Origin: Flagellimonas chongwuensis
GTDB lineage: Bacteria > Bacteroidota > Bacteroidia > Flavobacteriales > Flavobacteriaceae
Reading direction: 5' to 3'
Length of the DNA stretch: 64,000 bases
NCBI RefSeq assembly: GCF_013376415.1
Contig: NZ_WYET01000002.1
Span: forward strand, 124,001-188,000
The notes under the pieces are model-generated. The model was not told the origin of the DNA and did not search any database. It was given only the letters and a program-made list of their open reading frames with translations. Both the position numbers and the translations under genes were made by a program. Every line of letters starts with the position of its first letter. Position 1 is the stretch's first letter. This document shows, in pieces, positions 8,552 to 55,542 of the stretch.

Positions 8552-9337
8552 ATGAACATATCTCTAAAAGGAAAGAATGCCTTGGTCGGCGGCAGCAGCA
8601 AAGGAATCGGTGAAGCTATCGCTCGGCAATTGGCCGAAAGTGGTGCCAGCGTTACGTTGATGGCCCGAAGCGGGGGACGCATGAAAGATATCATTAGTGA
8701 ATTGGACACTTCGCATGGGCAAAAACACCAGTATCTATCCGTGGATTTTTCCAATTTTGAAAACTATAAAACAAAAATATCTGGGTTCTTCAAAACCAAT
8801 ACTGTAGACATTTTGGTAAACAATACCCAAGGTCCCGAAGGCGGCGGTGCATTGGAAAAAAACGTTGAAGATTACCAAAATGCTTTTGACCTTCTTTTTA
8901 AGTCGGTGGTGTACACTACGGAACTCGCTTTAAAACACATGCAGGCGAACCGCTGGGGCCGCATCATTAATATAGCATCTATTTCGGTAAAGGAACCATT
9001 GAACTATTTGGCTCTTTCGAACACTATTCGGGCTGCGGTGGTCACTTGGGCCAAAAGTTTGGCTTATGATGTAGCAAAAGATGGTATTACAGTAAACAGC
9101 ACGCTAACAGGTTACTTTGATACGGACCGCATTGCCCAATTAAATTCCAAAAAGGCTGAGAAGTTAGGAATTTCATCTGATGAAGTGCGCTCAAATATGG
9201 AAGAGCAAGTTCCTGTAAAAAGAATTGGAGATCCCAAAGAATATGGATACTTGGTTGCATTTTTGGCTTCGGACCAATCTGCATTCATCACAGGAACCAA
9301 TATCCCTATTGATGGAGGCTTGTTGAAGTCACTTTAA
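8552..9337 (+). CDS. SDR family oxidoreductase, atypical active site
   Basis: The 261-residue protein has the SDR nucleotide-binding loop 'GGSSKGIGEAIARQLAESGA' near the N-terminus, the 'VNNTQGPEGG' motif near residue 92 and the C-terminal 'ITGTNIPIDGG'. The Ser is in 'IINIASISVKEPL', but the expected Tyr-x3-Lys appears as 'LALSNTIRAAV', as in an atypical FabG-like subgroup in which Tyr and Lys are replaced. It may therefore bind NAD(P) without classical dehydrogenase chemistry. It follows the cupin gene after three bases, likely one transcript. The family is certain, the substrate unknown. Confidence 0.85.
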   Translation: MNISLKGKNALVGGSSKGIGEAIARQLAESGASVTLMARSGGRMKDIISELDTSHGQKHQYLSVDFSNFENYKTKISGFFKTNTVDILVNNTQGPEGGGALEKNVEDYQNAFDLLFKSVVYTTELALKHMQANRWGRIINIASISVKEPLNYLALSNTIRAAVVTWAKSLAYDVAKDGITVNSTLTGYFDTDRIAQLNSKKAEKLGISSDEVRSNMEEQVPVKRIGDPKEYGYLVAFLASDQSAFITGTNIPIDGGLLKSL

Positions 9338-11676: not shown

Positions 11677-11886
11677 CTACGATTTTTGTTCGGCTTTTCT
11701 TTTAAATGGATTGCTGCAAGACTTTTTCTGTGGCAAAAAGGCAACCCACATCATGGTCATCCCAGAATAGAAAAATGGAAAGTACTCCATATACTCCCAT
11801 GTTTTATATTTTCCAAATATTCCTATGGACACGCCAATTATTCCCATGGCCAAAACTACTTTCTGACTTGTCTTAAGCTTTTTCAT
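11677..11886 (-). CDS. Small two-helix membrane protein
   Basis: This 69-residue protein begins MKKLKTSQKVVLAMGIIGVS, has a hydrophobic helix (about residues 9-25) and a second one ('YFPFFYSGMTMMWVAFL', about 35-51), and ends in a basic tail. The basic N-terminus and hydrophobic hairpin are typical of small inner-membrane proteins of Bacteroidota. An overlapping frame on the other strand gives an irregular Cys/His-rich peptide and is not convincing. It lies upstream of the LytS-like kinase gene on the same strand, 55 bp before its start, and may share its transcript. Function unknown. Confidence 0.65.
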   Translation of the reverse strand: MKKLKTSQKVVLAMGIIGVSIGIFGKYKTWEYMEYFPFFYSGMTMMWVAFLPQKKSCSNPFKRKAEQKS

Positions 11887-12120
11887 ATTAATGGATTTTG
11901 CAACGTTAGCAGATTATAAAATAATACTTACTAAAATTGAAATAATTAATTTGGCTAGTGCGATCATAACTGTTCGGTTTTAGAATTTATTTCTGAAGCT
12001 AAAGTACCGGACAATTATTTGCTGATGAAGTGATTTATGACAAGTGGTAATTTTGACGAACCGAACGGTAAATCCGGTGTTTTTTGACAACGAAATACAG
12101 TAAACAACTGATTACCAATA

Positions 12121-12645
12121 TTATTTTCCCTTCGGAGGGAATTTAGAGAATACCTTTTTTACCACGGCACGTAGCTTATCCTCCCGTACACTTGGCGATG
12201 CATTCTCCCGGAGTCCGCTCTCGGCCACTGCCTGCCAGACAAGGGCATCCCGTTGTGCATCCACCAAATCGATTTGGATACTACGCTGCATATTTGGGCC
12301 ACCCAATGGTAATCCTACAGAAATACCACCTCCAACGTTTCTGCCGCCGCCGCCAAGTCCAACTCCTACGTTGTTGCTCGGAGCGCTCCTATATTCATTG
12401 CTCATAATGTTGATGAAAAGTTCAGGTTCTTCGGCCAATCGATAGCCACGAGCTTGCAAGGTAGAATCCAAGGCATTGAGCAATCTTTTTTCATCCAACT
12501 GACTCAATCCAGATTGCATATCGGAATAATAGTTATAGGTAGAATAGCTGGAAAAATCTACTGTTTTATCGTAATCATAGTTTACCTTGACAGAGCTACA
12601 GGATGCCAACAAAACAATCAAAACTATGGAAAGTAAATAACGCAT
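12121..12645 (-). CDS. DUF4136 domain lipoprotein
   Basis: This 174-residue protein starts MRYLLSIVLIVLLASCSSVK, with a lipobox LASC at the cleavage site. The mature part has 'VNYDYDKTVDFSSYSTYNYY', characteristic of DUF4136, a Gly-rich middle ('VGVGLGGGGRNVGGGISVG') and 'IDLVDAQRDALVWQAVAESG' near the C-terminus. DUF4136 proteins are envelope lipoproteins of unknown role. A longer start at 12678 would place 11 residues before the signal peptide and is unlikely. It sits 63 bp after the obgE start on the same strand, probably as a separate transcript. Confidence 0.85.
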   Translation of the reverse strand: MRYLLSIVLIVLLASCSSVKVNYDYDKTVDFSSYSTYNYYSDMQSGLSQLDEKRLLNALDSTLQARGYRLAEEPELFINIMSNEYRSAPSNNVGVGLGGGGRNVGGGISVGLPLGGPNMQRSIQIDLVDAQRDALVWQAVAESGLRENASPSVREDKLRAVVKKVFSKFPPKGK

Positions 12646-12708
12646 ATTGGATATTTGGGTTCTCCTAAAATTAATCAATATATTGATTAGAGGATAGATA
12701 GCTATCGG

Positions 12709-13710
12709 TTATTCGTTCAAAAGCTTCCAAAGTCTATCCTTAAGCTGCTGAACTCCCAACCCGCTCACGGAAGATATGAACATGTACGGGACATCCTTGA
12801 AATCTTCTTTCATGTCTTCATCCATTTCCGCGATAAGTTCTTGATCCAGCATATCGCATTTGGAAATGACCACTATACGACCTTTGTCCAACAACTCGGG
12901 ATTGTACCTTCTTAATTCATCCAAAAGAATGTTGTACTCTTGGCTAATATCCTTGCTATCCGCAGGTATCAAAAACAATAGGGTGGCGTTTCGTTCTATA
13001 TGACGCAGAAAATAATGCCCAAGTCCCTTTCCCTCGGCTGCACCTTCAATAATTCCTGGAATATCCGCCATCACAAAACTCTGGAAATCGCGATATTCCA
13101 CAATTCCCAAATTAGGTTTTAGTGTAGTAAACTCGTAATTGGCAATTTTGGGCTTTGCGGAGGTCATTACGGATAACAAGGTTGATTTCCCAGCATTGGG
13201 AAAACCTACCAACCCTACATCGGCCAAGACTTTGAGCTCAAGGGTCAAATGGCCCTCTTGCCCTTTAATTCCGGGTTGCGCGTATCTGGGAGTTTGGTTG
13301 GTGGCACTTTTAAAATGCCAGTTCCCGAGTCCGCCCATGCCACCTTCGAGTACAATTTTCTCTTCCCCGTCTTCGGTAATCTCAAAAAGTATCTCGTTGG
13401 TTTCGGTGTCCCGCACTACTGTGCCCAACGGCACTTCCATATACACATCCTCCCCGTCTGCACCAGTACTTCGGCTTTTGCTTCCGTGTTCGCCGTGGCC
13501 GGCCTTAAAGTGCTTTTTGAATTTAAAATGGACAAGTGTCCACAGGTTTTTGTTCCCTTTGACAATAACATGACCTCCTCGACCACCATCACCACCATCT
13601 GGCCCACCTTTGGCCACATATTTTTCACGACGTAAATGCGCAGACCCCTTGCCTCCGTTTCCGGAAGAGATGTGCACCTTTACATAATCGACAAAATTTC
13701 CTTCGGTCAT
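12709..13710 (-). CDS. obgE: GTPase Obg/CgtA
   Basis: The 333-residue protein has the glycine-rich Obg fold at the N-terminus ('[20 protein letters not shown]', then GGDGGRGG) and a GTPase domain from about residue 160 with G1 '[11 protein letters not shown]', G3 '[16 protein letters not shown]', G4 'SKCD' and G5 'ISSVSG'. The C-terminal extension seen in some species is absent, as is common in Bacteroidota. Obg is an essential ribosome-associated GTPase linked to 50S maturation and growth control. It is 33 bp downstream of the Hpt-Adk gene on the same strand and is probably co-transcribed with it. Confidence 0.97.
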
Positions 13711-14967: not shown

Positions 14968-16122
14968 ATGCAATTTTTCTCTTCAGACTTTAAATTGGGA
15001 ATTTTAGGTGGTGGACAACTGGGCAAAATGATGCTCTACGAAACCAGAAAATGGGATATTCAGACCAAGGTAATGGATGCTTCTCCGGAAGCTCCTTGCA
15101 AAATTGCCTGCAACGAGTTTGTTCAGGGCAGTTTGATGGATTTTGATGCAGTTTATGCTTTTGGAAAGGACGTCGATGTACTCACCATCGAAATTGAAAA
15201 CGTAAATGTTGATGCGCTCGAGAAATTGGAGCATGAAGGAAAAACAGTGTATCCGCCGACCAAAACCTTAAGGACGATACAGAACAAGGCCGTTCAAAAA
15301 TTGTTTTATACCGACCACGGCATCCCAACAGCTCCTTTTACCCGCTTTGCCTATACATCGGAAATCGAGGACAGCATAAACAACGGCGGACTTTCCTTAC
15401 CATTTGTTTGGAAGAGCGCCCAATTTGGGTATGACGGCCAAGGGGTAAAAGTCGTCCGAAAGATGGAAGACCTAAAAGAGCTTCCCAATGTGGAGTGCAT
15501 TGCCGAAAAAATGATTGATTTTAAAAATGAATTGGCAGTCGTGGTTGCTCGAAACTCGAAAGGTGAGGTAAAAACATATCCCGTGGTGGAAATGGAGTTT
15601 CATCCCGAAGCGAATCAGGTGGAATACGTAATCTGTCCCGCACGGATAGATGATATAGTAGCCAAAAAAGCACAGGAAGTAGCTTTAAAAGTTTCGGAAC
15701 ATATGAAGCACGTAGGACTGCTGGCCGTTGAAATGTTCCAAACCAAGGACGACCAAATTTTGGTGAACGAATCCGCACCAAGACCGCATAACAGTGGCCA
15801 CTACAGCATTGAAGCGGCTTACACCAACCAGTTTGAACAACATATCCGTGCCATTTTAGGTTTGCCATTAGGAAAAACCGACAGTAAAGTAGCTGGAATT
15901 ATGGTTAACTTGGTAGGTGCAGAAGGCCATACAGGGGATGTGGTTTATGAAAATATTGAGAAAATACTGGAAATGGACGGGGTTACACCACATATTTATG
16001 GCAAAAAACAAACCCGACCTTTTCGTAAAATGGGACATGTAACCATTGTTGACGAGAACATGGCACGAGCCAGAGAAGTGGCACAACAGGTAAAGGAAAC
16101 CATTAAAGTGATAAGCAAATAA
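14968..16122 (+). CDS. purK: 5-(carboxyamino)imidazole ribonucleotide synthase PurK
   Basis: This 384-residue ATP-grasp enzyme converts AIR, ATP and bicarbonate to N5-CAIR in purine synthesis. It begins 'MQFFSSDFKLGILGGGQLGK', with the glycine-rich N-terminal fold, then 'PTKTLRTIQNKAVQKLFY', the ATP-grasp 'PFVWKSAQFGYDGQGVKVV' and the catalytic part 'VNESAPRPHNSGHYSIEA' near residue 270. An upstream in-frame start would overlap the divergent hpt-adk gene and lacks family residues, so the ATG at 14968 is preferred. purE follows after three bases. The 108 bp between the purK and hpt-adk starts must hold both promoters. Confidence 0.96.
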   Translation: MQFFSSDFKLGILGGGQLGKMMLYETRKWDIQTKVMDASPEAPCKIACNEFVQGSLMDFDAVYAFGKDVDVLTIEIENVNVDALEKLEHEGKTVYPPTKTLRTIQNKAVQKLFYTDHGIPTAPFTRFAYTSEIEDSINNGGLSLPFVWKSAQFGYDGQGVKVVRKMEDLKELPNVECIAEKMIDFKNELAVVVARNSKGEVKTYPVVEMEFHPEANQVEYVICPARIDDIVAKKAQEVALKVSEHMKHVGLLAVEMFQTKDDQILVNESAPRPHNSGHYSIEAAYTNQFEQHIRAILGLPLGKTDSKVAGIMVNLVGAEGHTGDVVYENIEKILEMDGVTPHIYGKKQTRPFRKMGHVTIVDENMARAREVAQQVKETIKVISK

Positions 16123-16125
16123 GAT

Positions 16126-16617
16126 ATGAGCAAAGTAGCCGTGATCATGGGAAGCACAAGCGACCTTCCCGTTATGCAAGACGCAATCGATATTTTAAAG
16201 GAATTGGGCATAGAGGTAGATGTTGACATTGTCTCTGCTCACAGAACACCCGAAAAACTGTTCAGTTTCAGCAAGAGTGCACACACCCATGGCTATTCCG
16301 CAATAATTGCAGGAGCAGGTGGTGCAGCGCATTTACCGGGTATGGTGGCATCTTTATCTCCACTGCCTGTTATCGGGGTGCCGGTAAAAAGCAGCAATTC
16401 CATTGATGGTTGGGATTCCGTTCTATCCATTTTACAGATGCCCGGGGGCGTTCCTGTGGCCACAGTAGCCTTGAACGGTGCCAAAAATGCTGGAATCCTT
16501 GCTGCACAAATTATCGGAAGTGCCAACAGCGAGATCATGAACAACATCATTTCCTATAAAGAAGGGTTAAAGGAAAAAGTCATCAAAGGTGCTGAGGAGG
16601 TAAAAAAGACTTTTTAG
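16126..16617 (+). CDS. purE: 5-(carboxyamino)imidazole ribonucleotide mutase PurE
   Basis: The 163-residue class I PurE has 'VIMGSTSDLPVMQDAIDIL' at the N-terminus, 'SAHRTPEKLFSF' with the catalytic His near residue 46, 'IAGAGGAAHLPGMVASLS' and 'PVIGVPV' followed by the Ser/Asp-rich loop 'SSNSIDGWDSVLSILQMPGG'. It rearranges N5-CAIR to CAIR, the step after PurK. Its start lies three bases after the purK stop, so the two genes form one operon. Length and motifs are normal. Confidence 0.97.
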   Translation: MSKVAVIMGSTSDLPVMQDAIDILKELGIEVDVDIVSAHRTPEKLFSFSKSAHTHGYSAIIAGAGGAAHLPGMVASLSPLPVIGVPVKSSNSIDGWDSVLSILQMPGGVPVATVALNGAKNAGILAAQIIGSANSEIMNNIISYKEGLKEKVIKGAEEVKKTF

Positions 16618-16633
16618 AAAATCATCTTTGGTT

Positions 16634-17020
16634 ATGAACTATAATCAAATTGGCATATTGCTGGGGATTTGCGCCATTGCATTTTTTGGCTTTACCCTGC
16701 AAAAAGTGGGCAATCCATACCTGAAAGGCTTATGGAAAAGTGGTCTTTTGGTGTTTGCCCTATATGCCGTCCTTTTAATTTTCATTGAAATACGTTGGCA
16801 GTTCATTTCGGATTATGCCAGTAAATATGATTTGAACGGAAACGGTTTTGTGGATCTCAACGAATATTCCGAGGAGGCCATAGCAGCCATGAACAGAAAA
16901 ACCTATGGTTCAACTATCAGAGGGTACGCCCCTTTGACCATGGCCGTGATTTCATCCATTATCGGTTTTGCCTTTTTGTTGAGTGACTGGTCCGTGATAC
17001 GTTTAAAAAACAAAGAATAG
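16634..17020 (+). CDS. Small membrane protein with an EF-hand-like loop
   Basis: The 128-residue protein starts MNYNQIGILLGICAIAFFGF. I prefer this ATG to the TTG six bases upstream. Three hydrophobic segments are visible (about residues 6-22, 34-52 and 98-118). Between the second and third lies 'YDLNGNGFVDLNEYSEEAI', which matches the EF-hand calcium loop D-x-N-x-N-G-x-x-D-x-x-E. The loop may bind Ca2+ on one face of the membrane. It lies 16 bp after purE and 11 bp before the M3 peptidase gene, so it is probably in their transcript, but no functional link is apparent. Confidence 0.75.
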   Translation: MNYNQIGILLGICAIAFFGFTLQKVGNPYLKGLWKSGLLVFALYAVLLIFIEIRWQFISDYASKYDLNGNGFVDLNEYSEEAIAAMNRKTYGSTIRGYAPLTMAVISSIIGFAFLLSDWSVIRLKNKE

Positions 17021-17031
17021 AAGTAACAACT

Positions 17032-19059
17032 ATGAGCAATCCATTGTTGGAGCCATTTAATGAAGCTCCATTTTCTAAAATAAAGAACGAACATTTTAAG
17101 CCTGCTTTTCTTCAGGCCATCGAGGACACGAAAAAGGAAATCGATGATATTGTGAACAACCCAGAACCCCCGACGTTCGAAAATACGTTGGAGGCCCTGG
17201 ATTTTTCCGGGAAGCAATTGGACCGTATTTCAAGTATCTTTTTCAATTTGAATTCGGCGGAGACCAACGAAGAGATTCAGAAAATCGCCCAAGAGGTATC
17301 GCCCATATTGTCCGAATTCAGTAACGACATTACCTTGAACGAGGGTCTTTTTGCAAGGGTAAAGACCGTTTATGGGCAACGTGACTCTCTGGATTTGACC
17401 ACTGAACAACTGACACTTCTCGAAAAAAAATACAAGAATTTCAGTAGAAACGGAGCCAATTTGAAGGAGGAGAACAAAAAACGTCTTCGGGAAATTGATG
17501 CCGAACTCTCCAAGTTGAAACTCACCTTTGGTGAAAATGTATTGGCCGAGACCAATAAGTATGAAATGCTACTGACGGATGAAAAAGATGTGAACGGATT
17601 GCCCGAAGGAACCAAGGAAGCCGCAGCGCAATTGGCGGAATCCAAGGACAAGGAAGGCTGGCTGATTACTTTGGATTATCCGAGCTATATCCCTTTTATG
17701 AAATATGCCAAGAACCGCGAATTGCGCAAGGAACTTTCCATGGCTTTTGGCAGCAAAGGTTTCCACAATGATGAGCTGGACAACCAAGAAAACGTAAAGC
17801 GCATCGTTAACTTGCGACACGAAAGAGCCAATCTTTTGGGATATAGCACCCATGCCGATTTTGTTCTGGAAGAGCGAATGGCAGAAACTCCCGAAAAAGT
17901 AAAAGACTTTTTGAACGAACTTTTGGAAAAGGCCAAACCTGCTGCTGAAAGAGAATTTACCGAGTTAGAGGCCTACGCCAAGGAATTGGACAACATCGAC
18001 CGTCTGGAAAAGTGGGACAGTGCGTACTATTCCGAAAAGTTGAAACAGAAACTCTTCAATTTGGACGATGAAAAATTGAAACCCTACTTTAAACTGGAAA
18101 ATGTGATCAATGGGGTTTTTAAAGTTGCAGAAAAACTCTTTGGTCTTACTTTTAAAGAAGTGGACAACGTGGACAAATATCATCCAGAGGTTAAAACCTT
18201 CGAGGTATATGAGAACGATAATTTTATCTCGTTGTTCTATGCCGATTTCCACCCTAGGGCGGGAAAACGTGGAGGTGCCTGGATGACCTCATACAAACCA
18301 CAGTATATGTTAAACGGTGAAAACAGCAGACCACATATTTCCAACGTCTGTAATTTTACAAAACCTACGAGTTCAAAGCCCTCACTGCTCACCTTTAATG
18401 AGGTTACAACACTTTTCCATGAATTTGGTCACGGACTTCACGGCATGCTAGCTAACACCACCTACCCTAGCCTATCAGGTACTTCGGTGTATTGGGATTT
18501 TGTGGAACTGCCCAGCCAAGTGATGGAAAATTGGTGTTACGAAAAAGAGGCTTTGGAACTTTTTGCCCATCATTACGAGACAGGTGAGTTGATTCCGATG
18601 GAGTTAGTGGAAAAAATCAAGGAATCCGCTACTTTTCAAGAGGGTATGGCCACGGTTCGCCAATTAAGTTTTGGTTTATTGGACATGGCGTGGCATGGTA
18701 CAGACCCATCAAGCATTGAAAATGTAAAAGACTACGAAGAGCATGCTTTTGAAAGTACAAATTTGTTCCCAGAAACAGCGGAAACATGTATGAGCACATC
18801 ATTCTCACACATTTTTCAAGGCGGATATTCATCTGGCTACTATAGCTACAAATGGGCAGAAGTTCTAGATGCGGACGCCTTCGCCTACTTTAAGGAAAAT
18901 GGAATTTTTAGCAAAACAGTTGCTGATAAATTCAAGGAAAATGTCCTATCAAAAGGAGGAACGGAAAACCCTATGGAACTTTATAAAAAGTTCCGTGGAG
19001 CCGTACCAAATGTCAACGCATTGTTGGAACGTGCTGGGCTTTTGGAGACCAATAATTAA
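17032..19059 (+). CDS. M3 family metallopeptidase (oligopeptidase / peptidyl-dipeptidase type)
   Basis: This 675-residue protein has the M3 thimet-oligopeptidase zinc motif 'LFHEFGHGLHGML' at about residues 461-473, with the third ligand Glu in 'FVELPSQVMENWC'. The N-terminal half is helical, beginning 'PLLEPFNEAPFSKIKNEHFK', as in Dcp/OpdA. It has no signal peptide, so it is cytoplasmic and degrades short peptides. The C-terminal 'FQGGYSSGYYSYKWAEVLDA' is the conserved substrate-binding part. It is the last gene of the purK-purE run. Whether it is a peptidyl-dipeptidase or an oligopeptidase cannot be told from sequence alone. Confidence 0.95.
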   Translation: MSNPLLEPFNEAPFSKIKNEHFKPAFLQAIEDTKKEIDDIVNNPEPPTFENTLEALDFSGKQLDRISSIFFNLNSAETNEEIQKIAQEVSPILSEFSNDITLNEGLFARVKTVYGQRDSLDLTTEQLTLLEKKYKNFSRNGANLKEENKKRLREIDAELSKLKLTFGENVLAETNKYEMLLTDEKDVNGLPEGTKEAAAQLAESKDKEGWLITLDYPSYIPFMKYAKNRELRKELSMAFGSKGFHNDELDNQENVKRIVNLRHERANLLGYSTHADFVLEERMAETPEKVKDFLNELLEKAKPAAEREFTELEAYAKELDNIDRLEKWDSAYYSEKLKQKLFNLDDEKLKPYFKLENVINGVFKVAEKLFGLTFKEVDNVDKYHPEVKTFEVYENDNFISLFYADFHPRAGKRGGAWMTSYKPQYMLNGENSRPHISNVCNFTKPTSSKPSLLTFNEVTTLFHEFGHGLHGMLANTTYPSLSGTSVYWDFVELPSQVMENWCYEKEALELFAHHYETGELIPMELVEKIKESATFQEGMATVRQLSFGLLDMAWHGTDPSSIENVKDYEEHAFESTNLFPETAETCMSTSFSHIFQGGYSSGYYSYKWAEVLDADAFAYFKENGIFSKTVADKFKENVLSKGGTENPMELYKKFRGAVPNVNALLERAGLLETNN

Positions 19060-45725: not shown

Positions 45726-46904
45726 TCACCCTTTCTGTGTTTTGGCAATAATTTTATCATTATACATGGCATCCAAGCCCATTTGTACACAAGTAGCTGC
45801 CATAGCACCTGTTCTGGCATTGGAAACAGGCAATGTATTGTTTACAATATTGTCCCTAAAGTCGATTAAGGCTTGTTTGCTTGGGTCTTCATGGTCAAAC
45901 TTAATAGGAATGCCCCTGCCTTGGTCCCAGTTCAGGGTGGCCCCGGAAACACCGTCAACTTCACCGATTTTCTTTTCGTAGCTTCCTTCTGGATAAAACC
46001 AAGCCTTTGCATAGTCCAAAATATAGGTTCCCTTGTCCCCCATTACCTTGACCTTATAATCGCCCATGGCGTTACTGGTAAGGCAGGTAAATGATGCTCT
46101 TACCCCTTCAGGGTAACTATAGATAAGATGGATATTGTCATAAGTTTCCCTACCATCTTTCCAATAATCGATGCCTCCTATGCCCATCACCTTTTCGGGC
46201 ATGGCATCCATTACCCAGTTGGCAAAATCCAATTGGTGGGAACAAAGTTCGGCCAAAAGACCGCCTGAAAATTCCCGGTACATACGCCAGTTGATCATAC
46301 GCTCCCATTTTGGGTCAGGTACAGGGCGACGCCAATTTCCATTACGGTTCCATTGGCATTCAAAAGCTGTTATTTTTCCTATTTTACCGTTTCTCACTTC
46401 ATCAACAACATGCGAATACAAACGGGAACTATGGTATTGGTGGCCTGTTTGGAATATGCCATTGGATGCGTCTGCTGCTGAGACCAATTCAGCTATACCT
46501 TCGTACCCTTTTGCCATCGTCTTTTCCCCGTACACATGTTTTCCTGCCTTTAGGGCATCGATAGCTATCTTGGAATGTGTGCTGAACGGGGTGGCCACCA
46601 AAACGGCGTCCACATCCTTGTCTTCCAATAATTTTTTGTAATCAGAATAGCCTTTGGCCTTTCCTGCTACTTTTGAAAGTCCCGAGCTAAGTCTAAAGGG
46701 GATAATATCACAACAGGCCACTACTTGCATGTTGGGAATCTGATTGATAAATGGAATGAGTCCACCACCCCGGTCCCCTGTTCCTATAACACCTACATTG
46801 ATGGTTTCGTTCGCACTGGGGGTTCCGTACGCAAGTACCGTTGGGGCATATAGGACTGCAGAACTGGCCAAACTACTTTTTATGACAAAATCTCGTCGCT
46901 TCAT
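45726..46904 (-). CDS. Tat-exported Gfo/Idh/MocA family oxidoreductase
   Basis: The 392-residue protein starts 'MKRRDFVIKSSLASSAVLYA', a twin-arginine signal, so it is folded with its cofactor and exported to the periplasm. The NAD(P)-binding loop is 'GVIGTGDRGGGLIPFINQIP' near residue 38, with 'GKHVYGEKTMAKGYEGIAEL' near 125 containing the conserved E-K motif. Family members oxidise or reduce sugars at C1 or C3. With the second Gfo/Idh gene and the DUF1080 protein it resembles sets that act through 3-keto sugar intermediates. It is the last gene of the sugar-acid operon, six bases after its neighbour. Confidence 0.9.
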   Translation of the reverse strand: MKRRDFVIKSSLASSAVLYAPTVLAYGTPSANETINVGVIGTGDRGGGLIPFINQIPNMQVVACCDIIPFRLSSGLSKVAGKAKGYSDYKKLLEDKDVDAVLVATPFSTHSKIAIDALKAGKHVYGEKTMAKGYEGIAELVSAADASNGIFQTGHQYHSSRLYSHVVDEVRNGKIGKITAFECQWNRNGNWRRPVPDPKWERMINWRMYREFSGGLLAELCSHQLDFANWVMDAMPEKVMGIGGIDYWKDGRETYDNIHLIYSYPEGVRASFTCLTSNAMGDYKVKVMGDKGTYILDYAKAWFYPEGSYEKKIGEVDGVSGATLNWDQGRGIPIKFDHEDPSKQALIDFRDNIVNNTLPVSNARTGAMAATCVQMGLDAMYNDKIIAKTQKG

Positions 46905-46910
46905 ATCCAT

Positions 46911-48251
46911 TTAAAGTTTTGGTTCCCATCCAGGTTCATACGTTCGTTTCCAAAGTTCCATGGCTTCCCTGTCAAAAATCCTTCCCGTGTTTCCATCCAC
47001 ATTGAACCCTTTATCGATTCGATAGGCTATATTGGCGTAGTGCGTTAACATTTGCGAAATGGCCCCCACTTCAATATGTGATGTCAATGCTTCTTTTCCA
47101 CGAATGGCATTAAAGAAATTCACTGCATGCCTCGTTGACAGATCTCCTCCACCTCCAAGGGCGGTTCCTCCTTCGTTACCGTCAGATTTATTTTCCTTGA
47201 TCAATTGTCCCTTGAGGTCGTACAGTTCATATCCGTCACGGTCCACCATTACCGAACCTTCAGAGCCATAAATAAGGGTACCCCGACCACGACCGTATTT
47301 GGAATAGCCGTTCCTACTGCTTCCATCCCATTGAATGATTTTATCATCGGCAAACGCATAGGTCGCTTCCATGGTATCGTACATTTCCCATCCGTCATCC
47401 ATGAATTGCTCCTTTCCAGCGATCACCTCCACATATTCCGGATATTTCACATCCAATGCCCACCGGGCTATATCCAGTTCATGTGTCGCATTATTCCCCA
47501 TTTCAGCGGTTCCATAATCCCAACCGTACCAATGCCAGTTATAGTCCCAGGTATCGTGTTCGTATGCTTTTCTTGGAGCTGGTCCTTGGAACAGTTCCCA
47601 GTCCAAATCCTCTGGTGGTGCAGTCTGTACCGGAAGCGGGACTTCCCCCCTACCATTGGTGTAGAAAGCTATTGCCTTGTAGGCCTTGCCTATAATGCCA
47701 TTATGGATATCGTTGATGATTTCGATACTCTGTGGGGACGATCGCTGCTGATTGCCCATTTGGACCACCTTATCATACTTTTTTTGGAATGCGACCACTA
47801 TTTCATTCTCATGAGGGTTATGGCTACATGGCTTTTCCAAATAAACATGCTTGCCTGCCTCCATGGCCATACAAGCCCCTGGTGTGTGCCAATGGTCAGG
47901 GGTAGCCATAAAAATCGCATCCACATCCTTGTCTTCCAGAATCTTTCTAATATCCTTTTCCTGTTTGGGGTTATAAGTTATTTGTTCAGATACATATTGT
48001 ACCGCTTTTTCCAATTGGCTACCCCGAACATCGCATAAATAATCCAAGCGCACATTGTTCTGCTTGGCCGCTATGGAAGGAATATAGGCACCATAGCGCC
48101 TTCCCAATCCCTGAAGGGCAACATGAATCCTGTCATTTGCCCCTAAAATATTGTTATAACTCTTGGCCGTCATGGCATTGATACTACCGGGTAGTCCCAT
48201 GCCAATGGCAGCGACCGTTGTTTTCTTTATAAAATCTCTTCGTGCTCCCAT
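46911..48251 (-). CDS. Tat-exported Gfo/Idh/MocA family oxidoreductase
   Basis: This 446-residue protein starts 'MGARRDFIKKTTVAAIGMGL', a twin-arginine signal. The nucleotide-binding part is 'HVALQGLGRRYGAYIPSIAA' near residue 42, the E-K motif is 'GKHVYLEKPCSHNPHENEIV' near 130, and a long C-terminal domain with 'DYNWHWYGWDYGTAEMGNNA' follows. It is longer than its neighbour and of a different subgroup, so the pair may act on two steps or two anomers of one sugar. It lies six bases before the other Gfo/Idh gene and ten bases after the DUF1080 gene. Confidence 0.9.
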   Translation of the reverse strand: MGARRDFIKKTTVAAIGMGLPGSINAMTAKSYNNILGANDRIHVALQGLGRRYGAYIPSIAAKQNNVRLDYLCDVRGSQLEKAVQYVSEQITYNPKQEKDIRKILEDKDVDAIFMATPDHWHTPGACMAMEAGKHVYLEKPCSHNPHENEIVVAFQKKYDKVVQMGNQQRSSPQSIEIINDIHNGIIGKAYKAIAFYTNGRGEVPLPVQTAPPEDLDWELFQGPAPRKAYEHDTWDYNWHWYGWDYGTAEMGNNATHELDIARWALDVKYPEYVEVIAGKEQFMDDGWEMYDTMEATYAFADDKIIQWDGSSRNGYSKYGRGRGTLIYGSEGSVMVDRDGYELYDLKGQLIKENKSDGNEGGTALGGGGDLSTRHAVNFFNAIRGKEALTSHIEVGAISQMLTHYANIAYRIDKGFNVDGNTGRIFDREAMELWKRTYEPGWEPKL

Positions 48252-48261
48252 AAATCCTTGT

Positions 48262-49623
48262 TTAATCTAGTGGTTTTATTTTGATGTTCTTAAAACTTAC
48301 ACGGTCCCCATGGTCCTGTAATAATATGTGACCTTTATCGGCTTCGCCAAAGTTGGGCCATTTCTCATACTTACTTTCGGAGACTAGTTTTCGATACGCA
48401 TCGCTTTTTCGCTCGTACTCCAAAACCTTAGTACCATTGAGCCAATGTTCTACATGGTTGTCCTTTGAAATGATATGGGCAGTGTTCCATTCCCTGATCG
48501 GATTGATGGGCTTATTGATATCAGCTTGAATCAAATCGTACAAAGATGCTACGGTGCGACTACCTTCATGATTCCCCAATTTTGCATCGGGATGCCTTTC
48601 ATCGTCCAAGATTTGATATTCCAAACCAATTGAGGAGCCGGGCCCCTTGTTCAAATCCGTGTCCACATAATATTTTATACCACTATTGGCACCTTCCGTC
48701 AATTTGAAATCCACTTTCAATTCAAAGTCCCCGTACAGCTCAGTAGTCACAATATCGCCACCGGCGGCAGATTCTTCACCCCCTGAAGACAGAACGGTCA
48801 ACACACCGTCATTGATTTCCCATCCTTTATCTGGAAAATCATCCAAGCGTGCACCGCGCCAACCTACAGTGGTCTCGCCGTCCCATAACAACTGCCATCC
48901 GTTTTTTTCCTCATCAATGGTCAGCTGATTCTTGGTCACGACCGGGGCCAAGGGCATTTCTTTGTTGTATTTTGAAAGACTGTCCGTCAAGATTTTGACA
49001 TTTTTCCACGCTATCTCCGTTCCCGCCTTCTGATCTTTGCCAATGCTGTGCACTTGAAGGGCAATAAAGCCGCTTGCTGTTTTGTCATCGATCAAATGTG
49101 CCGCTGGAACTCCGTTGATCCAGGTTTGGATCGTATCTCCGATGGCCTCGATGCGATAGTGGTTCCAATCATTCTGTTTGAAGGCCTTTTGTGCCTCGGG
49201 ATTATCTTCCAAGGTTACGAGCCAACCTCTTCGCCCTTCATCGTAGATTCCGGCACTCCATGCCCGGTCCGATGGATCTATCTCAATCTGATAGCCATGC
49301 ACCCTCCCATTTTGATAATGGGGAAAGCTATTGCTTCGTATTTGGATTCCCGAATTCATGGTTGAATCCACTTTGTAATCCAATTCCAAGATAAAATCAT
49401 CGTACATCTTATCCGTTGTCAAAAAGGAATTGGGCGTATCATGGACCGTGGATCCAACGATGGCACCCCCATTTACTTCATAATTGGCCTCTCCGCCCTT
49501 TTGGTTCCATCCGTTAAGGGTTGTTCCGTGGGACAATTCGATCCACGGAGCATCATCTTTAGGTGAGTCCGCACATGCCCAACACAGTAGCAATGCCAAG
49601 AAGCCTAGTTTTAGTTTGTTCAT
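48262..49623 (-). CDS. Lipoprotein with two DUF1080 domains (3-keto-disaccharide hydrolase family)
   Basis: The 453-residue protein starts 'MNKLKLGFLALLLCWACADS', with a lipobox-like WAC at the cleavage site. Two DUF1080 lectin-like beta-sandwich domains follow, at about residues 28-215 ('IELSHGTTLNGWNQKGGEAN', 'ILELDYKVDSTMNSGIQIRS') and 235-450 ('WQLLWDGETTVGWRGARLDD', 'LKVDFKLTEGANSGIKYYV'). Members of this family hydrolyse 3-keto glycosides after an oxidoreductase has oxidised C3. The two exported Gfo/Idh proteins just downstream fit that partnership. The ATG at 49623 is chosen over one four codons upstream because it gives a standard signal. Confidence 0.88.
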   Translation of the reverse strand: MNKLKLGFLALLLCWACADSPKDDAPWIELSHGTTLNGWNQKGGEANYEVNGGAIVGSTVHDTPNSFLTTDKMYDDFILELDYKVDSTMNSGIQIRSNSFPHYQNGRVHGYQIEIDPSDRAWSAGIYDEGRRGWLVTLEDNPEAQKAFKQNDWNHYRIEAIGDTIQTWINGVPAAHLIDDKTASGFIALQVHSIGKDQKAGTEIAWKNVKILTDSLSKYNKEMPLAPVVTKNQLTIDEEKNGWQLLWDGETTVGWRGARLDDFPDKGWEINDGVLTVLSSGGEESAAGGDIVTTELYGDFELKVDFKLTEGANSGIKYYVDTDLNKGPGSSIGLEYQILDDERHPDAKLGNHEGSRTVASLYDLIQADINKPINPIREWNTAHIISKDNHVEHWLNGTKVLEYERKSDAYRKLVSESKYEKWPNFGEADKGHILLQDHGDRVSFKNIKIKPLD

Positions 49624-49664
49624 TTTATGTGTCATGAGTTAAAAATTATACTTTACAATTCGAT

Positions 49665-50969
49665 TTATAGGCCAAATAGACCCGGTAGCCACAAGGCCAA
49701 CTCTGGAATATAGGTAATCAGAAAAAGTGCCAGTATCATGGCCGCAAACAACGGCAATAGTGGTCTTATCACTTTTTCAATGGATGTTTTTGCCACACCC
49801 ACCCCCACAAAGAGTACCGAGCCCACCGGAGGTGTACATAGTCCAATACAGAGGTTCAAGATCATGATGATACCAAAATGCACCGGATCTATTCCCAATT
49901 TTGTCACGATAGGCAAAAATATCGGGGTAAATATGAGAACGGCCGGGGTAATGTCCATAAAGATACCCACTATCAGCAAGATTATATTTATAATGAGCAA
50001 TAGGGCAATTTTGTTGTCGGTAACAGACAATAGTCCAGAACTGATTTCCTGCGGTATATGCTCAAAGGAAAGTGCCCATGACATGCTCATGGAGGCCGCT
50101 ATCAAAAGCATCACAACAGCGGTGGTGGCAGAAGCATTCAAAAAGATATCGGGTAGTTTTTTTAACGTTATCTCTTTATAGACAAAGCCCAGTATCATAC
50201 TGTAGAGTACTGCAATGGCGGAAGCTTCGGTGGCGGTAAACACACCGGCCACGATGCCCCCAATGACCAAAACCAACAGGAACAGGCTTGGAACGGCATC
50301 TACAAACGTTTTAAAAACCTGTTTTAATGAGCTTCGTTGTCCCTTGCCGTAGCCTTTCTTCTTGGCCCAGAACATGGCGACGACCATCAAGAGCAGGCCA
50401 GTGATTAGCCCTGGGATGTATCCGGCCAAGAAAAGAGCGGCAATGGATGCACCTCCACTTGCCAAGGAATACACAATCAATACATTGCTTGGAGGAATTA
50501 CCAATCCTGTCGTGGCCGAGGTAATGTTGACGGATACCGAAAAACCCTTATCATATCCTTCTTTTTCCATTTCCGGTCCCAGAATACTTCCCATGGCCGA
50601 GGCCGAGGCCATGGCCGAACCTGCAATGGCGCCCATGAACATTGCCGATATAATATTGATCAGGGCAAGCCCTCCGGGCAATGCCCCTACCAAGCTTTTG
50701 GCAAAAGCTATCAAACGGTGGGCAATTCCACCGTGGTTCATCAGTTCCCCAGACAATATAAAAAATGGAATCGCCAACAGGGCGAAACTATCCAAGCCCG
50801 TGGCCATTCGCTGAGATATGGTCGCGAATGCGGGCAGCATGGGCAAACTGACCAGTAGGGTCAACATAGATGAAATGGCTATGCTCCAAGCTACAGGGGT
50901 GCCAATGGCCAAAAGACCCACAAAACTTATGATCAAAACTAGCAAGGGTATATATTCCATAAGGTTCAA
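49665..50969 (-). CDS. dctM: TRAP transporter large permease (DctM family)
   Basis: The 434-residue protein has about twelve hydrophobic segments and DctM blocks such as 'IPFFILSGELMNHGGIAHRL', 'GAIAGSAMASASAMGSILGP' and 'LCIGLCTPPVGSVLFVGVGV'. It is the sodium-coupled transport subunit of a TRAP system for an organic or sugar acid. It overlaps dctQ by four bases, and the set dctP-dctQ-dctM is complete. Neighbouring uxuA suggests a hexuronate or related acid as the substrate. Confidence 0.95.
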   Translation of the reverse strand: MNLMEYIPLLVLIISFVGLLAIGTPVAWSIAISSMLTLLVSLPMLPAFATISQRMATGLDSFALLAIPFFILSGELMNHGGIAHRLIAFAKSLVGALPGGLALINIISAMFMGAIAGSAMASASAMGSILGPEMEKEGYDKGFSVSVNITSATTGLVIPPSNVLIVYSLASGGASIAALFLAGYIPGLITGLLLMVVAMFWAKKKGYGKGQRSSLKQVFKTFVDAVPSLFLLVLVIGGIVAGVFTATEASAIAVLYSMILGFVYKEITLKKLPDIFLNASATTAVVMLLIAASMSMSWALSFEHIPQEISSGLLSVTDNKIALLLIINIILLIVGIFMDITPAVLIFTPIFLPIVTKLGIDPVHFGIIMILNLCIGLCTPPVGSVLFVGVGVAKTSIEKVIRPLLPLFAAMILALFLITYIPELALWLPGLFGL

Positions 50970-51427
50970 TCCGTTATTATATCCACGACTTTGTTATAGG
51001 TAACTATCAATCCGCTCAAGGGAATCACGACATATACATACGCCAAGGGCAACCCCAATGCCGGGGAGTGCTGTTTGAGTTCATACGTAGTGTACACCAA
51101 CCATCCACCACCTGTCACCATTGCCGCTAGACAGAAAAGAATGATAAAACCGGACACTGTTCTTTTTAATACTTTTTGATTTTTGGCATTGGCCCGTTTA
51201 GCCAATACATCTATGGCCACATGACCGTTTTTGCCTGAAACATAGGCGGCACCCAACAATCCTAACCATATCATAAGGAAGCGGGCTAGTTCATCAGTAA
51301 ATGGACTTGGTTCGTCCAGAACATATCTGCTGAACACTTGCCAAAGCACGTTCAGCACCATAAGGCTCATCAGCACAACAAGCAAACGTGCCAAAATATT
51401 TTCAAGTCTTTTCTTGAACCCAATCAA
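50966..51427 (-). CDS. dctQ: TRAP transporter small permease (DctQ family)
   Basis: The 153-residue protein has four hydrophobic helices and the DctQ pattern 'LMVLNVLWQVFSRYVLDEPS' with 'FTDELARFLMIWLGLLGAAY' near residue 45 and 'HVAIDVLAKRANAKNQKVLK' near 70. It pairs with DctM in the membrane. It overlaps both dctM and dctP by four bases, so the three genes are translationally coupled. Confidence 0.94.
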   Translation of the reverse strand: MIGFKKRLENILARLLVVLMSLMVLNVLWQVFSRYVLDEPSPFTDELARFLMIWLGLLGAAYVSGKNGHVAIDVLAKRANAKNQKVLKRTVSGFIILFCLAAMVTGGGWLVYTTYELKQHSPALGLPLAYVYVVIPLSGLIVTYNKVVDIITD

Positions 51428-52404
51428 TTCGCCAATGTTTTTATTTGTTGTATCATGTTGTTCAATTCTTCATCATCTTCATAGGCCCGGTACATTTCCC
51501 TTGTCATTTCGATAAACGGTTCCTTATTCGGATACGAAATCTGCACACCTTTTTCCTGAATTTTTTTCAAAGCTTCCGATTCCGATTCCGCCCACAATTT
51601 CCGTTGATGCTCCAGTGATTTTTTCACAGCCTCACTTATCCAAGCCCTTTCCTGATCAGAGAGCATATCCCAAAATTGGGTGCCAACAATTAATACATCT
51701 GGAGAAAATGTATGTTCGTCCAGCGAATAATATGGACAAACCTCATAATGTTTGGAAAGGTAAAAACTGGGGAGATTGTTCTCCGCTCCATCCACTACGC
51801 CCTGTTGCAGTGACGTGTAGAGCTCCCCCCATGAAATGGGTGTTGGGGAACCTCCCAGACTTTTGACCATGTCCATTGCGGTAATACTCTCCATGACCCG
51901 AATCTTGAGCCCCTTTAAATCGTCCGGAGCGGTTACAGGTGCATGCTCGGTATAAAAGCTTCGAAATCCGGCATCGTAATAGCCCAAACCTTTTAATCGA
52001 AATTGTTTGGCATTGTCCAACAATGATTGTCCAATCGGACCATCCAACACCTCAAATGCGTGTTCCCGGCTCTCAAAAAGATAGGGCAGCCCCAATATTC
52101 TGGTCTTCGGGGCAAAATTCTCCAGAGTGGCGACCGACACTTTGGTCATATCAAGACTTCCCAATTGAATCAACTCCAGAATTTCACGTTCAGTGCCCAA
52201 TTGTTGATTAGGGTAGATCTCGATTCGAAGCTTTCCTTTGGAAACACTATCAAGGTCTTCTCCCATTTTCACCATGGCCCTATGCACCGAATGGTTGATA
52301 TCCAAACCATGAGCCAATCTTATAGTTCTGACACCACCGACCTCTTCGCAACCAAGGACGAAGAACAACGTACACAACAAAAGAATGGCTACGAACTGTT
52401 TCAT
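51424..52404 (-). CDS. dctP: TRAP transporter substrate-binding protein (DctP family)
   Basis: This 326-residue protein begins 'MKQFVAILLLCTLFFVLGCE', a lipoprotein signal with LGC, so the receptor is membrane-anchored on the periplasmic side. It has 'RIEIYPNQQLGTEREILELI' near residue 60, the substrate-contacting Arg region 'LKGLKIRVMES' near 165 and 'AENNLPSFYLSKHYEVCPYY' near 215, as in DctP proteins for sugar acids. It overlaps dctQ by four bases, and its ATG shares one base with the stop of the chimeric ORF upstream. Confidence 0.95.
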   Translation of the reverse strand: MKQFVAILLLCTLFFVLGCEEVGGVRTIRLAHGLDINHSVHRAMVKMGEDLDSVSKGKLRIEIYPNQQLGTEREILELIQLGSLDMTKVSVATLENFAPKTRILGLPYLFESREHAFEVLDGPIGQSLLDNAKQFRLKGLGYYDAGFRSFYTEHAPVTAPDDLKGLKIRVMESITAMDMVKSLGGSPTPISWGELYTSLQQGVVDGAENNLPSFYLSKHYEVCPYYSLDEHTFSPDVLIVGTQFWDMLSDQERAWISEAVKKSLEHQRKLWAESESEALKKIQEKGVQISYPNKEPFIEMTREMYRAYEDDEELNNMIQQIKTLAN

Positions 52405-52670
52405 TATTCTTTTTCTCCGATTTTTTCTGTCAATTTTAAGGTGCCCACCACTTTTTTCTGCAGCCCTTCAAAATCATTTTGTCCCAAAACCCCTTTGCAA
52501 ATCAATTTGGAGCCGACGTTTACATAGGTTGCTCCTGCATCGAACCAAGCCTGCACTGCACTCCACTTATAACGGTTACAGTAATCCATAATGGGCATTT
52601 CCTTGACATAGCCACGGTACAATTCTTCCGATTGTGGGGTCTCCAGCAAAAAATTTTCTATAAATGTCAT
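52404..52670 (-). pseudogene. In-frame deletion chimera: UxaC N-terminus joined to KDPG/KHG aldolase C-terminus
   Basis: This 88-residue ORF is built from two unrelated enzymes. Residues 1-30 ([20 protein letters not shown] and YVKEMPIMDY) match the start of glucuronate isomerase UxaC, up to the first metal-binding His motif, which is lost (DYCNRY in place of the usual DYHCHL). Residues about 41-80 ('AWFDAGATYVNVGSKLICKG' and 'GLQKKVVGTLKL') match the end of KDPG aldolase (Eda). Neither active site survives. The frame is open and still coupled to uxuA upstream (four-base overlap) and dctP downstream. I infer a deletion that removed most of uxaC, probably kdgK, and most of eda. The junction lies at about 52550-52583. 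Confidence 0.8.
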
Positions 52671-53854
52671 TGAAGCAGGGATTTTTCTATACCGTACATG
52701 AGCCCCCTTAATTCAGCAAGACCTCGAAGACGTCCTATTGCCGAATACCCCGGGTTGGTTTTCTTAAGGATGTCATCCAACATTTGATGTCCATGGTCAG
52801 GCCGCATCGGCATGCGACGGTTCTTTGCATTTTTTTTGCTACGCCCAAGTTGTTCTTTTAGCAATTCGTACATGACTCCATACATATCCACATCACCATC
52901 CAAATGGTCCGCTTCATAAAAATTGCCGAGCGAATCTCTTTTTGTACTTCTAAGGTGTATAAAATTGATTCTTTCCGATAAGCGATGAGCCATACCCACC
53001 AAATCATTGTCTTCCCTAACCCCGTAGGAGCCCGTACAAAAACACAGGCCGTTATAGGGGCTATCGTAGGCTGCAAGGAGTTTATTTGCATCCATTTCCG
53101 TACTCACCACTCTTGGAAGGCCCAAAATAGGGTATGGAGGATCATCAGGATGGATTGCCAAAAAGACACCCGACTTTTCTGCCATTGGGCCGATTTCCTT
53201 GATAAAATCGTACAGATTACTTCTAAGTTCCTCCTCGCCTATGTCCTGATACATATCCAAAGCCTTTTGGAACTGTTTCACGGTGTATCCTTCCTCTGCT
53301 CCCGGCAGACCGGCAATAATGTTTTGGACCAAACGCTTCTTGGCTTCATCGTCCATGCTTTCGAATACTGTTTTAGCCATTTCTATGGTTTCCTTGGCGT
53401 AGTAGTCAAAGGCTTCTTCACGATTCAATATAAAGAGTTCGAAAGCCGCAAATTCAATGGCATCAAAACGGAGTGCTAAGGAACCATCTGACATTTTATA
53501 GGAAAGATCCGTTCGGGTCCAGTCCAAAATGGGCATAAAATTGTAACATACTGTGTCAATTCCACACAAACCTAGGTTTTCAATGCTCTGTTTGTAATTG
53601 GCAATATATTCCTTATACTTCCCTGTTCGTTTTTTAATGTCCTCGTGAACGGGTATGCTCTCCACCACCGACCAAGTAAGACCATAGGCCTCCACGTCCT
53701 TTTTTCTTTTGTTTATGTCCGATATGGACCAAGCATCACCGTTTGGAATGTGGTGCAATGCCGTTACAATACCGGTTGCCCCGGCCTGCCTAATGTCGGT
53801 AAGGGAAACGGGGTCATTTGGTCCGTACCATCGCCATGTTTGTTCTAAACCCAT
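52667..53854 (-). CDS. uxuA: Mannonate dehydratase
   Basis: The 395-residue TIM-barrel enzyme starts '[20 protein letters not shown]' and contains '[20 protein letters not shown]', '[20 protein letters not shown]' near residue 105, '[20 protein letters not shown]' near 230, 'FIHLRSTKR' near 310 and '[12 protein letters not shown]' near 345, with conserved metal-binding His and Asp. It dehydrates D-mannonate to 2-keto-3-deoxygluconate. It comes after the SDR reductase gene and overlaps the chimeric ORF by four bases. Without local kdgK and eda, its product must be processed by enzymes encoded elsewhere, if at all. Confidence 0.97.
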
Positions 53855-53886: not shown

Positions 53887-54742
53887 TTAAACGCCGCTAA
53901 AAGCACTGAAACCCCCATCGATGGGAACTACTATACCCGTAACGAATTTTGATTGTTCGCTGCATAACCACAAGGTTGTTCCCACCAAATCCTCCGGTTC
54001 ACCGAAACGGCCCATAGGGGTTTGATCGATTATTGTGGTTCCCCTAGGAGTAAGTCCTCCTTCGGGATTGGTCAACAAGCTTCTGTTTTGGTCGGTCAGA
54101 AAAAAACCAGGAGCCAAGGCATTCACACGAATATCCACTTTGGAAAAATGGACGGCTAGCCATTGGGTAAAATTCGAAATAGCAGCTTTTGCCCCGCTGT
54201 ATGCGGGTATTTTAGTAAGCGGTGTAAAGGCATTCATCGAGGAAATGTTCAAAACATTGCATCCTACGCGACTTACCATGTCTTTTGAGAAAACCTGTGT
54301 AGGCAACAGGGTTCCAATGAAATTCAAGTTGAACACAAATTGAATTCCTTCCGTATCCAAGTCGAAGAATGTCTTGAAATCCTTTGCTGTTTCAAGTAAG
54401 TCCTCCTTGGTCAAATAAGGGTTACTGGTCGTTCCCAATGGATGGTTCCCCCCCTGCTCCATTGATGAGGATATCACAGGGGCCAAACCTTTCAGCAATG
54501 GCTTTTTTGGCCTCTTCAAGACTTTCCCTGTCAAGCACATCAACTTTGATACACATTGCACTCCCCCCTGCATTATTTATTTTTTCTGAAACGGTCTGAG
54601 CCGCTTCCCTATTCAAATCCATGACACAGACCTTTGCTCCTTGATTGGCAAAAGCATGGGCCAAGGTGCTGCACAAAATACCGCCACCACCGGTTATTCC
54701 CACAACTTTGCCCTTCAATTCTTTATATTTGGGATTATCCAT
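53887..54742 (-). pseudogene. SDR reductase of the mannonate/fructuronate type, interrupted by a homopolymer frameshift
   Basis: Two overlapping frames make one classical SDR of about 284 residues. The first frame (from ATG at 54742) gives 'KGKVVGITGGGGILCSTLAH' and 'GPCDILINGAGG'; the second gives 'NHPLGTTSNPYLTKEDLLET', 'NISSMNAFTPLTKIPAYSGA' followed by K (Ser, Tyr and Lys of the active site), and '[18 protein letters not shown]'. The switch is at a run of seven C on the plus strand (54448-54454), where six would keep the frame. The full protein would reduce fructuronate to mannonate ahead of UxuA. The frameshift may be a sequencing error, a phase-variable tract or a true loss. Confidence 0.8.
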
Positions 54743-54781
54743 TGCTATTATTTTTTTCTTTTGAACAAAGTATTGGACTAG

Positions 54782-54808
54782 GTAAAAAATATTCTGTGTA
54801 CTTTTTAC
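54782..54808. promoter_or_regulatory. Candidate operator between NUDIX regulator and uronate operon
   Basis: Arms GTAAAAA and TTTTTAC separated by 13 bp lie in the 131-bp divergent region, where both promoters must be. This is a plausible binding site for the dimeric NUDIX-winged-helix regulator, but the arms are AT-rich and chance is possible. Confidence 0.35.
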
Positions 54809-54873
54809 ATGGTTTTAAATATATAAATTTTACTTGCTCTCGTGAAGAAAAAAGCAAAAATTCACACAAAAAA

Positions 54874-55542
54874 ATGATAACTCAGGAAAAACTTCAAGGT
54901 ATCCAAGTAAAACCAGATTCATTTGAATGTTCCATCACTGCGGACATAACGGTTTTTGGATATGTAGACGGGAAACTAAAAGTCCTTCTTATAAAAAGAT
55001 CTTTGGGACATTTTAAAAACCAATGGCATGTCCCTGGAGGGGTAATGGAGGAACATGAAACCATTGAGGACTGTGCCGCAAAGGTCCTTTTTTCCCTTAC
55101 TGGATTTAGGGACATACACTTTGAACAGGTAAAGACCTATACTGCATTGGACAGGCATCCTTTGAAAAGAGTCATTACTATCTGTTTTTATGCATTGGTG
55201 AAACCAGAGAACCATCCGCTGACGTTAAAGGACAACATTACGAGCATTGATTGGTTCGATGTGGACGCTATTCCCGAAAATCTTGGTTTTGACCATGAAA
55301 AGCTGATTCACGAAGCCTACTCATTTGTACAGAACAACTTACGGCACAAACTTATTGTTGGCGAACTTCTTCCCAAAGAGTTTACCCTACAAGAACTGCA
55401 GAACCTGTATGAGGATATCTTGGATGTTGAGCTGGATAGAAGAAATTTCAGAAAACGCATATTCCAAATGGATGTTTTGGAGAACACCGGAAAGAAAAAA
55501 CAGGGAGTAAAAGGAGGTCCATATCTATACAGGTTAAAGTAA
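54874..55542 (+). CDS. NUDIX-winged-helix transcriptional regulator (NrtR/AraR-like)
   Basis: The 222-residue protein starts 'MITQEKLQGIQVKPDSFECS'. An upstream frame is AT-rich and not family-like. A NUDIX fold covers residues about 20-150 with 'DITVFGYVDGKLKVLLIKRS', 'WHVPGGVMEEHETIEDCAAK' and VLFSLTGF; the catalytic Arg-Glu and Glu-Glu pairs of the NUDIX box read Lys-Val and Ser-Leu, so hydrolase activity is unlikely. A winged-helix domain follows ('LLPKEFTLQELQNLYEDILD', then 'RRNFRKRIFQMDVLENTG'). By analogy with the family it is a ligand-sensing repressor, here most likely of the adjacent divergent uronate operon. Confidence 0.88.
   Translation: MITQEKLQGIQVKPDSFECSITADITVFGYVDGKLKVLLIKRSLGHFKNQWHVPGGVMEEHETIEDCAAKVLFSLTGFRDIHFEQVKTYTALDRHPLKRVITICFYALVKPENHPLTLKDNITSIDWFDVDAIPENLGFDHEKLIHEAYSFVQNNLRHKLIVGELLPKEFTLQELQNLYEDILDVELDRRNFRKRIFQMDVLENTGKKKQGVKGGPYLYRLK

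Follow-up and report, generated by a model that had tools for sequence, protein, structure and literature searches.

Two deletions as the origin of an in-frame uxaC-eda scar in a probably redundant uronate operon of Flagellimonas chongwuensis

Introduction

Bacterial pseudogene remnants that arise by deletion between short direct repeats, through slipped mispairing, are of a known kind. Leader ORFs, for their part, can raise translation of the gene that follows. Translational coupling has been described where genes overlap by 1 or 4 nt, with tests in E. coli and Haloferax (PMC10666635, PMC6728339), and for two E. coli gene pairs 15 nt at the end of the upstream gene were enough (PMC10666635). 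Some genes are also reported to allow reinitiation across about 10-15 nt (PMC4833913, PMC10666635), and a peak in the distance of short leader ORFs from nearby genes is seen in Bacteroidetes as well (PMC4833913).

Here we analyse a window of 64,000 nucleotides from the marine bacterium Flagellimonas chongwuensis (contig NZ_WYET01000002.1, positions 124,001 to 188,000), in which an 88-codon ORF with a fully open frame (window positions 52404-52670, minus strand) lies between uxuA and dctP of a uronate operon. A preliminary description, made from the sequence, had read this ORF as the product of one deletion that fused uxaC to eda and cut the uronate pathway. Judged by titles and the openings of abstracts, none of the publications found in a literature search describes this locus. 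We put the probability at about 0.9 that the ORF is an in-frame scar, left when a redundant gene block decayed by two deletions.

Results

The 88-codon frame is made of uxaC and eda pieces

The ORF is an in-frame fusion of the uxaC start with the eda end and consists of three pieces (Table 1). Homologues were searched in 99 genomes, namely the genome itself and 98 relatives, 59 of these from the same genus. Searched separately, the two halves were clear in same-genus genomes: residues 1-34 matched UxaC at identities of up to 79% (E to 8e-11), and for residues 39-86 the identity to Eda reached 67% (E to 1e-14). Of the nine relative loci compared, six (L036-L041) have the UxaC-like and Eda-like matches together in one operon. 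These matches bear out the in-frame fusion of the preliminary description, which had left residues 31-40 undivided; they hold a second short piece of uxaC, reading RYKWSAV in the remnant and HYKWRAM in L036, and flanked by a 72-nt deletion and a ~2.81-kb deletion. The borders of this piece slide by several nt, and its aligned positions differ between relatives. Piece 1 has in addition lost a single codon (3 nt) after codon 4, separately from the two larger deletions. As previously described, the frame is open and overlaps both neighbors: 4 nt (ATGA) are common to the end of uxuA and the start of the remnant, and the stop codon of piece 3 shares 1 nt with the dctP start (TAATG).

Table 1. Features of the uronate operon in the window (window positions).
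Feature	Position	Strand	Remark
Remnant piece 1	52575..52670	-	uxaC codons 1 to about 33
Remnant piece 2	52554..52574	-	about 21 nt, uxaC codons ~57-64
Remnant piece 3	52404..52553	-	final ~48 eda codons (from AWFDAG) and stop codon
uxuA, mannonate dehydratase	52667..53854	-	intact, constrained
dctP, TRAP solute-binding protein	51424..52404	-	intact, constrained
dctQ, small TRAP membrane subunit	50966..51427	-	
dctM, large TRAP membrane subunit	49665..50969	-	
SDR, first operon gene	53887..54742	-	split into two frames
Divergent NUDIX / NrtR-AraR-type winged-helix gene	54634..55542	+	

In Pfam searches, the UxaC model (PF02614) matched residues 4-33 of the whole ORF (E=0.0005, 19.4 bits), covering profile positions 6-35 of 464, and matched the first 37 residues alone at E=8e-5 and 22 bits. 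Both scores lie under the curated cut-off of 25 bits, and the ORF carries no full-length UxaC domain above it. The last 59 residues, searched alone, gave no Pfam match, and Eda (PF01081) was not seen. The N-terminal DYHNH stretch of UxaC, whose histidine pair we take to be metal ligands, reads HNH in eight same-operon relatives and CNR in the remnant, both histidines being replaced, by Cys and Arg. The retained part of eda starts downstream of the IKLFPG stretch, which presumably includes the Schiff-base lysine of the KDPG aldolase Eda, and an aldolase domain with this lysine is not present. A full-length match to the 88-residue protein was found in 1 of the 99 genomes, its own; the widely conserved full-length homologues that the preliminary description had named as evidence against a remnant did not appear among them. 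In viral contigs searched for relatives of the protein, none of 15 candidate stretches was confirmed.

Surroundings of the remnant in the operon

A single additional base in a seven-G run (54448-54454, minus strand) splits the first operon gene, an SDR; this frameshift is absent from the finding of the preliminary description. The SDR orthologue in L036 matches NF006132, D-mannonate oxidoreductase, at 428 bits, and the portion past the G7 run is still conserved. Nonsynonymous changes found in the window only number 5 at 332 sites past the frameshift (0-5 in relatives) and 5 at 146 sites before it (0-10 in relatives). These counts point to a recent mutation, a slippage-rescued gene or a sequencing error.

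The divergent NUDIX/winged-helix gene is likely the regulator of the operon, judging from its position; the start of the tabulated ORF may be too far upstream, as relatives match from residue 51-81. After the transporter, a DUF1080-like protein and two Gfo/Idh-like oxidoreductases, named by sequence appearance, occupy 45726-49635 on the minus strand, and such genes accompany the transporter in most relatives compared. DNA identity to L036 and L049 is 89-96% from dctQ to DUF1080 (about 51200-48400) and, unlike this adjoining stretch, 81-88% in dctP and uxuA; SDR-uxuA is closest to L048 (88-94%). In this, the window operon resembles a mosaic produced by recombination between species.

Relatives retain the block at the same place

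We compared 17 orthologous operons, excluding the window, with dctP at least 80% identical (L036, L039, L045-L059). Among 71 same-genus genomes there were 16 dctP matches of at least 80% besides the window's own, and the relative loci include GTDB contigs of Flagellimonas, Allomuricauda and Muricauda and one Flavobacteriaceae bin. The order SDR-uxuA-uxaC-kdgK-eda-dctP-dctQ-dctM is kept in 10 of the 17 (L036, L039, L045, L046, L048-L052, L057), where the uxaC-to-eda interval measures 3.15-3.22 kb versus 267 bp in the window. In nine of these ten, uxuA, uxaC, kdgK, eda and dctP are all open from ATG; the exception is L057, whose uxaC contains one stop and whose kdgK has CTG at its aligned start. 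Full-length homologues therefore stand at the same place in 10 of 17 operons, nine of them with no internal stop, and these full sets uphold the earlier proposal that kdgK was lost together with most of uxaC and eda. Within L057 (Allomuricauda taeanensis), the uxaC with the stop lies at 5781-7184 and a DUF1080 match at 11768-13137 is in two pieces; this operon is possibly also decaying.

In two other relatives, L047 and L053, kdgK and eda are missing at this place, with breakpoints that differ from the window's. L053 (Flagellimonas aequoris), in which no SDR was seen either, has a separate out-of-frame scar at 8884-9001 that joins the kdgK start to the eda end and stops well before dctP; its uxaC ends 113 nt before dctP, and dctP is open. 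In L047, kdgK-eda has been cleanly lost with a third set of breakpoints, and uxaC ends 10 nt before dctP. In the remaining five (L054, L055, L056, L058, L059), uxuA adjoins dctP, and uxaC, 57-59% identical to L036 uxaC, lies at about 15735-17135, downstream of the transporter and DUF1080 block. By eye these five have no eda tail before dctP, and they were not counted as deletion cases.

At least two deletions are required

The remnant was aligned with forward jumps to the 10 full uxaC-eda intervals. One jump left 60-79 mismatches and two jumps left 51-67, which is 9 to 15 fewer in each relative; a third jump gained 2. Thus the origin by one deletion put forward in the preliminary description is ruled out, as two jumps are needed against all 10 relatives, and at least two deletions are required. 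All ten relatives give a small deletion, inside uxaC, of exactly 72 nt; the large one, from uxaC through kdgK into eda, is ~2.81 kb (2808-2879 nt, varying with the spacing in the relative). Together with the lost codon, the three indels (3, 72 and ~2811 nt) all preserve the frame.

The 22-nt middle piece was borderline in a plain shuffle test, with best matches of 14-17 of 22 positions and a best of 16-18 in 200 shuffles. Its best placement falls at the identical uxaC nucleotide and phase in all 10 relatives; of the two tests, the jump alignment carries more weight.

Direct repeats lie at these junctions in some of the relatives. An exact ACCACT repeat (6 bp) is in register with the small deletion in four of the ten, and an exact repeat of 6-10 bp around GGGCTTG is in register with the large deletion in five; three relatives (L045, L046, L050) have both. 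Junction repeats in the remaining relatives are short, at 2-5 bp. Slipped mispairing between direct repeats was probably the mechanism, as suggested by the repeats in this subset.

The remnant has lost amino-acid constraint

Rates were counted at sites unanimous in nine relatives; since these come from one genus and are non-independent, and since the operon looks like a mosaic, the lineage-specific counts are approximate. In the 88 codons of the scar, 23 changes occur in the window only, 21 nonsynonymous and 2 synonymous, whereas each of the nine relatives, examined one by one, has 1-5 nonsynonymous changes in these codons. The nonsynonymous rate per site is 0.128 in the uxaC part of the scar and 0.159 in the eda part, compared with 0.010 in uxuA and 0.006 in dctP. 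Synonymous rates are 0.189 in uxuA and 0.147 in dctP; in the scar, about 12 synonymous sites are unanimous and 2 have changed, too few for a silent rate of its own. Amino-acid change in the scar is about as fast as silent change in uxuA and dctP, two genes that are themselves constrained. Consistent with this, the neutral expectation for the nonsynonymous fraction is 0.92 (0.88 with transition bias), and 21 of 23 were observed.

By this substitution pattern, the scar has been drifting over much of the time since the lineage separated, with uxuA and dctP constrained throughout. Amino-acid constraint has been lost as in a deletion remnant, and the frame is open, with neither stops nor frameshifts. 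A disrupted frame is common in pseudogenes but is not required.

A complete second gene set in the same genome

Another contig of the genome, C9 (L035), carries full-length uxaC (NF002794, 602 bits), full-length eda (NF005499, 350 bits) and full-length kdgK, which is 81% identical to kdgK of L036. It also carries a second, full-length uxuA, an SDR beside this uxuA and the TRAP transporter dctPQM. This SDR passes the cut-off of only two general models among the 25 models shown, and its role as the reductase would follow from context. The ORFs next to the set are, by eye, what we take to be GH10, GH43 and GH67 types; an NCBIfam search of the 731-residue ORF beside it gave no match at E 1e-10. 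Judged by gene content, the uronate pathway is not cut. The preliminary description had placed a break at the isomerase and at KDG use and had allowed for other copies, and it is the latter provision that holds.

In the account that we favor, the operon in the window was a second uronate operon (SDR-uxuA-uxaC-kdgK-eda-dctPQM) whose isomerase, kinase and aldolase were made dispensable by the complete set elsewhere in the genome, and this redundancy was probably the cause of the loss. Two deletions, probably between short direct repeats, took out 72 nt in uxaC and ~2.81 kb from uxaC to eda. An 88-codon in-frame scar remained and has drifted without detectable amino-acid constraint, and uxuA and dctP have stayed under purifying selection.

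Alternative explanations

We consider two other explanations of the ORF very improbable. The 88-residue protein might be a functional small protein newly born by gene fusion, since its frame is open and it is likely still translated in the operon. However, its nonsynonymous rate about equals the silent rate of its neighbors, its one full-length match in 99 genomes is itself, most of both folds is absent and the HNH histidines of piece 1 are replaced; on the substitution pattern we reject such a function. A collapse or misjoin in the assembly, with uxaC-kdgK-eda still present in the true sequence, would fit a draft genome of 13 contigs in which the SDR frameshift falls at an error-prone G7 run. 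A misjoin would, however, leave normal gene ends, and here the scar pieces have drifted, with 21 nonsynonymous changes among 23 at otherwise unanimous sites against 1-5 in each relative. This drift argues against an artefact, as does the fact that the other matches to the pieces in this genome are only 41% and 50% identical.

A further possibility concerns not the origin of the scar but why it has stayed open. The scar may have been selected as a translated bridge, with frame and overlaps kept for termination-reinitiation at dctP and its sequence free, which we regard as possible but clearly less likely than simple decay. All three indels in the scar keep the frame. Stop/start overlaps of 1 or 4 nt occur at uxuA-uxaC and at eda-dctP in all ten full sets, and both are retained in the window, where the TAATG with dctP is the stop/start overlap of a translationally coupled leader ORF; coupling has been described at both overlap lengths, and dctP stays constrained. 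Against this, L053 with its 113-nt gap and open dctP indicates that coupling is dispensable in the genus. L047 is a weaker counter-case, its gap of 10 nt being within reach of the reinitiation reported over about 10-15 nt. The case was also picked up because its frame was open. In a drift simulation the frame remained open in 3-14% of trials at the plausible rates of 0.13-0.17 changes per site and in 11-29% at 0.08; stops alone would be avoided in 13-54%, declining as changes go from 15 to 51. The simulated figures are rough, as the simulation starts from the present remnant, assumes indel rates and excludes the in-frame landing of the deletions. No significant RNA fold was found over the dctP start in seven sequences (z -0.83 to 1.62), and RNA structure there was rejected as the reason for retention of the tail. 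Drift would leave the frame somewhat less intact than it is, and this could mean some function. It is plausible, if weakly so, that the open frame with its ATGA and TAATG overlaps still carries ribosomes to dctP; that it is kept open purely as a ribosome relay, with amino acids drifting at the silent rate, is a shade more doubtful than the bridge itself.

Discussion

Decay of a probably redundant block by two deletions makes this locus mostly a case of ordinary gene loss, with one unusual feature that is open to test. It shows cleanly, in nature, how an operon can lose a redundant stretch and spare the genes behind it: both deletions were in frame, and what they left drifts in its amino acids and still ends on the next start codon. 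As such, it offers a simple test of whether or not operon decay is steered by translational coupling. If the bridge were real, some 'fused pseudogenes' of operons would be protein-free translation bridges. For annotation, the locus is a warning that a small ORF, though open and overlapping its operon neighbors, can be a scar without protein function.

Compared with the remnants known from slipped mispairing, the scar is alike in its junctions at 6-10 bp repeats in some relatives, its relaxed constraint and the full-length copy of each lost gene elsewhere. It is unlike them in that it joins two genes, is open after drift and overlaps its neighbors on both sides. The glucuronate operon with TRAP transporter of Flagellimonas, Allomuricauda and Muricauda is matched in gene order and families (10 of 17 relatives); the divergent NUDIX/winged-helix gene is also as in full-set relatives, within the nine-locus comparison in which it was sought. 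In the window, unlike in that operon, nothing but the scar is left of uxaC, kdgK and eda, and the SDR carries a frameshift. Finally, ATGA and TAATG around a short ORF of free sequence resemble the termination-reinitiation pairs and leader ORFs already described (PMC6728339, PMC10666635, PMC4833913). Unlike those, the frame is a deletion scar and not an evolved leader, a relative does without it, and its coupling to dctP is putative.
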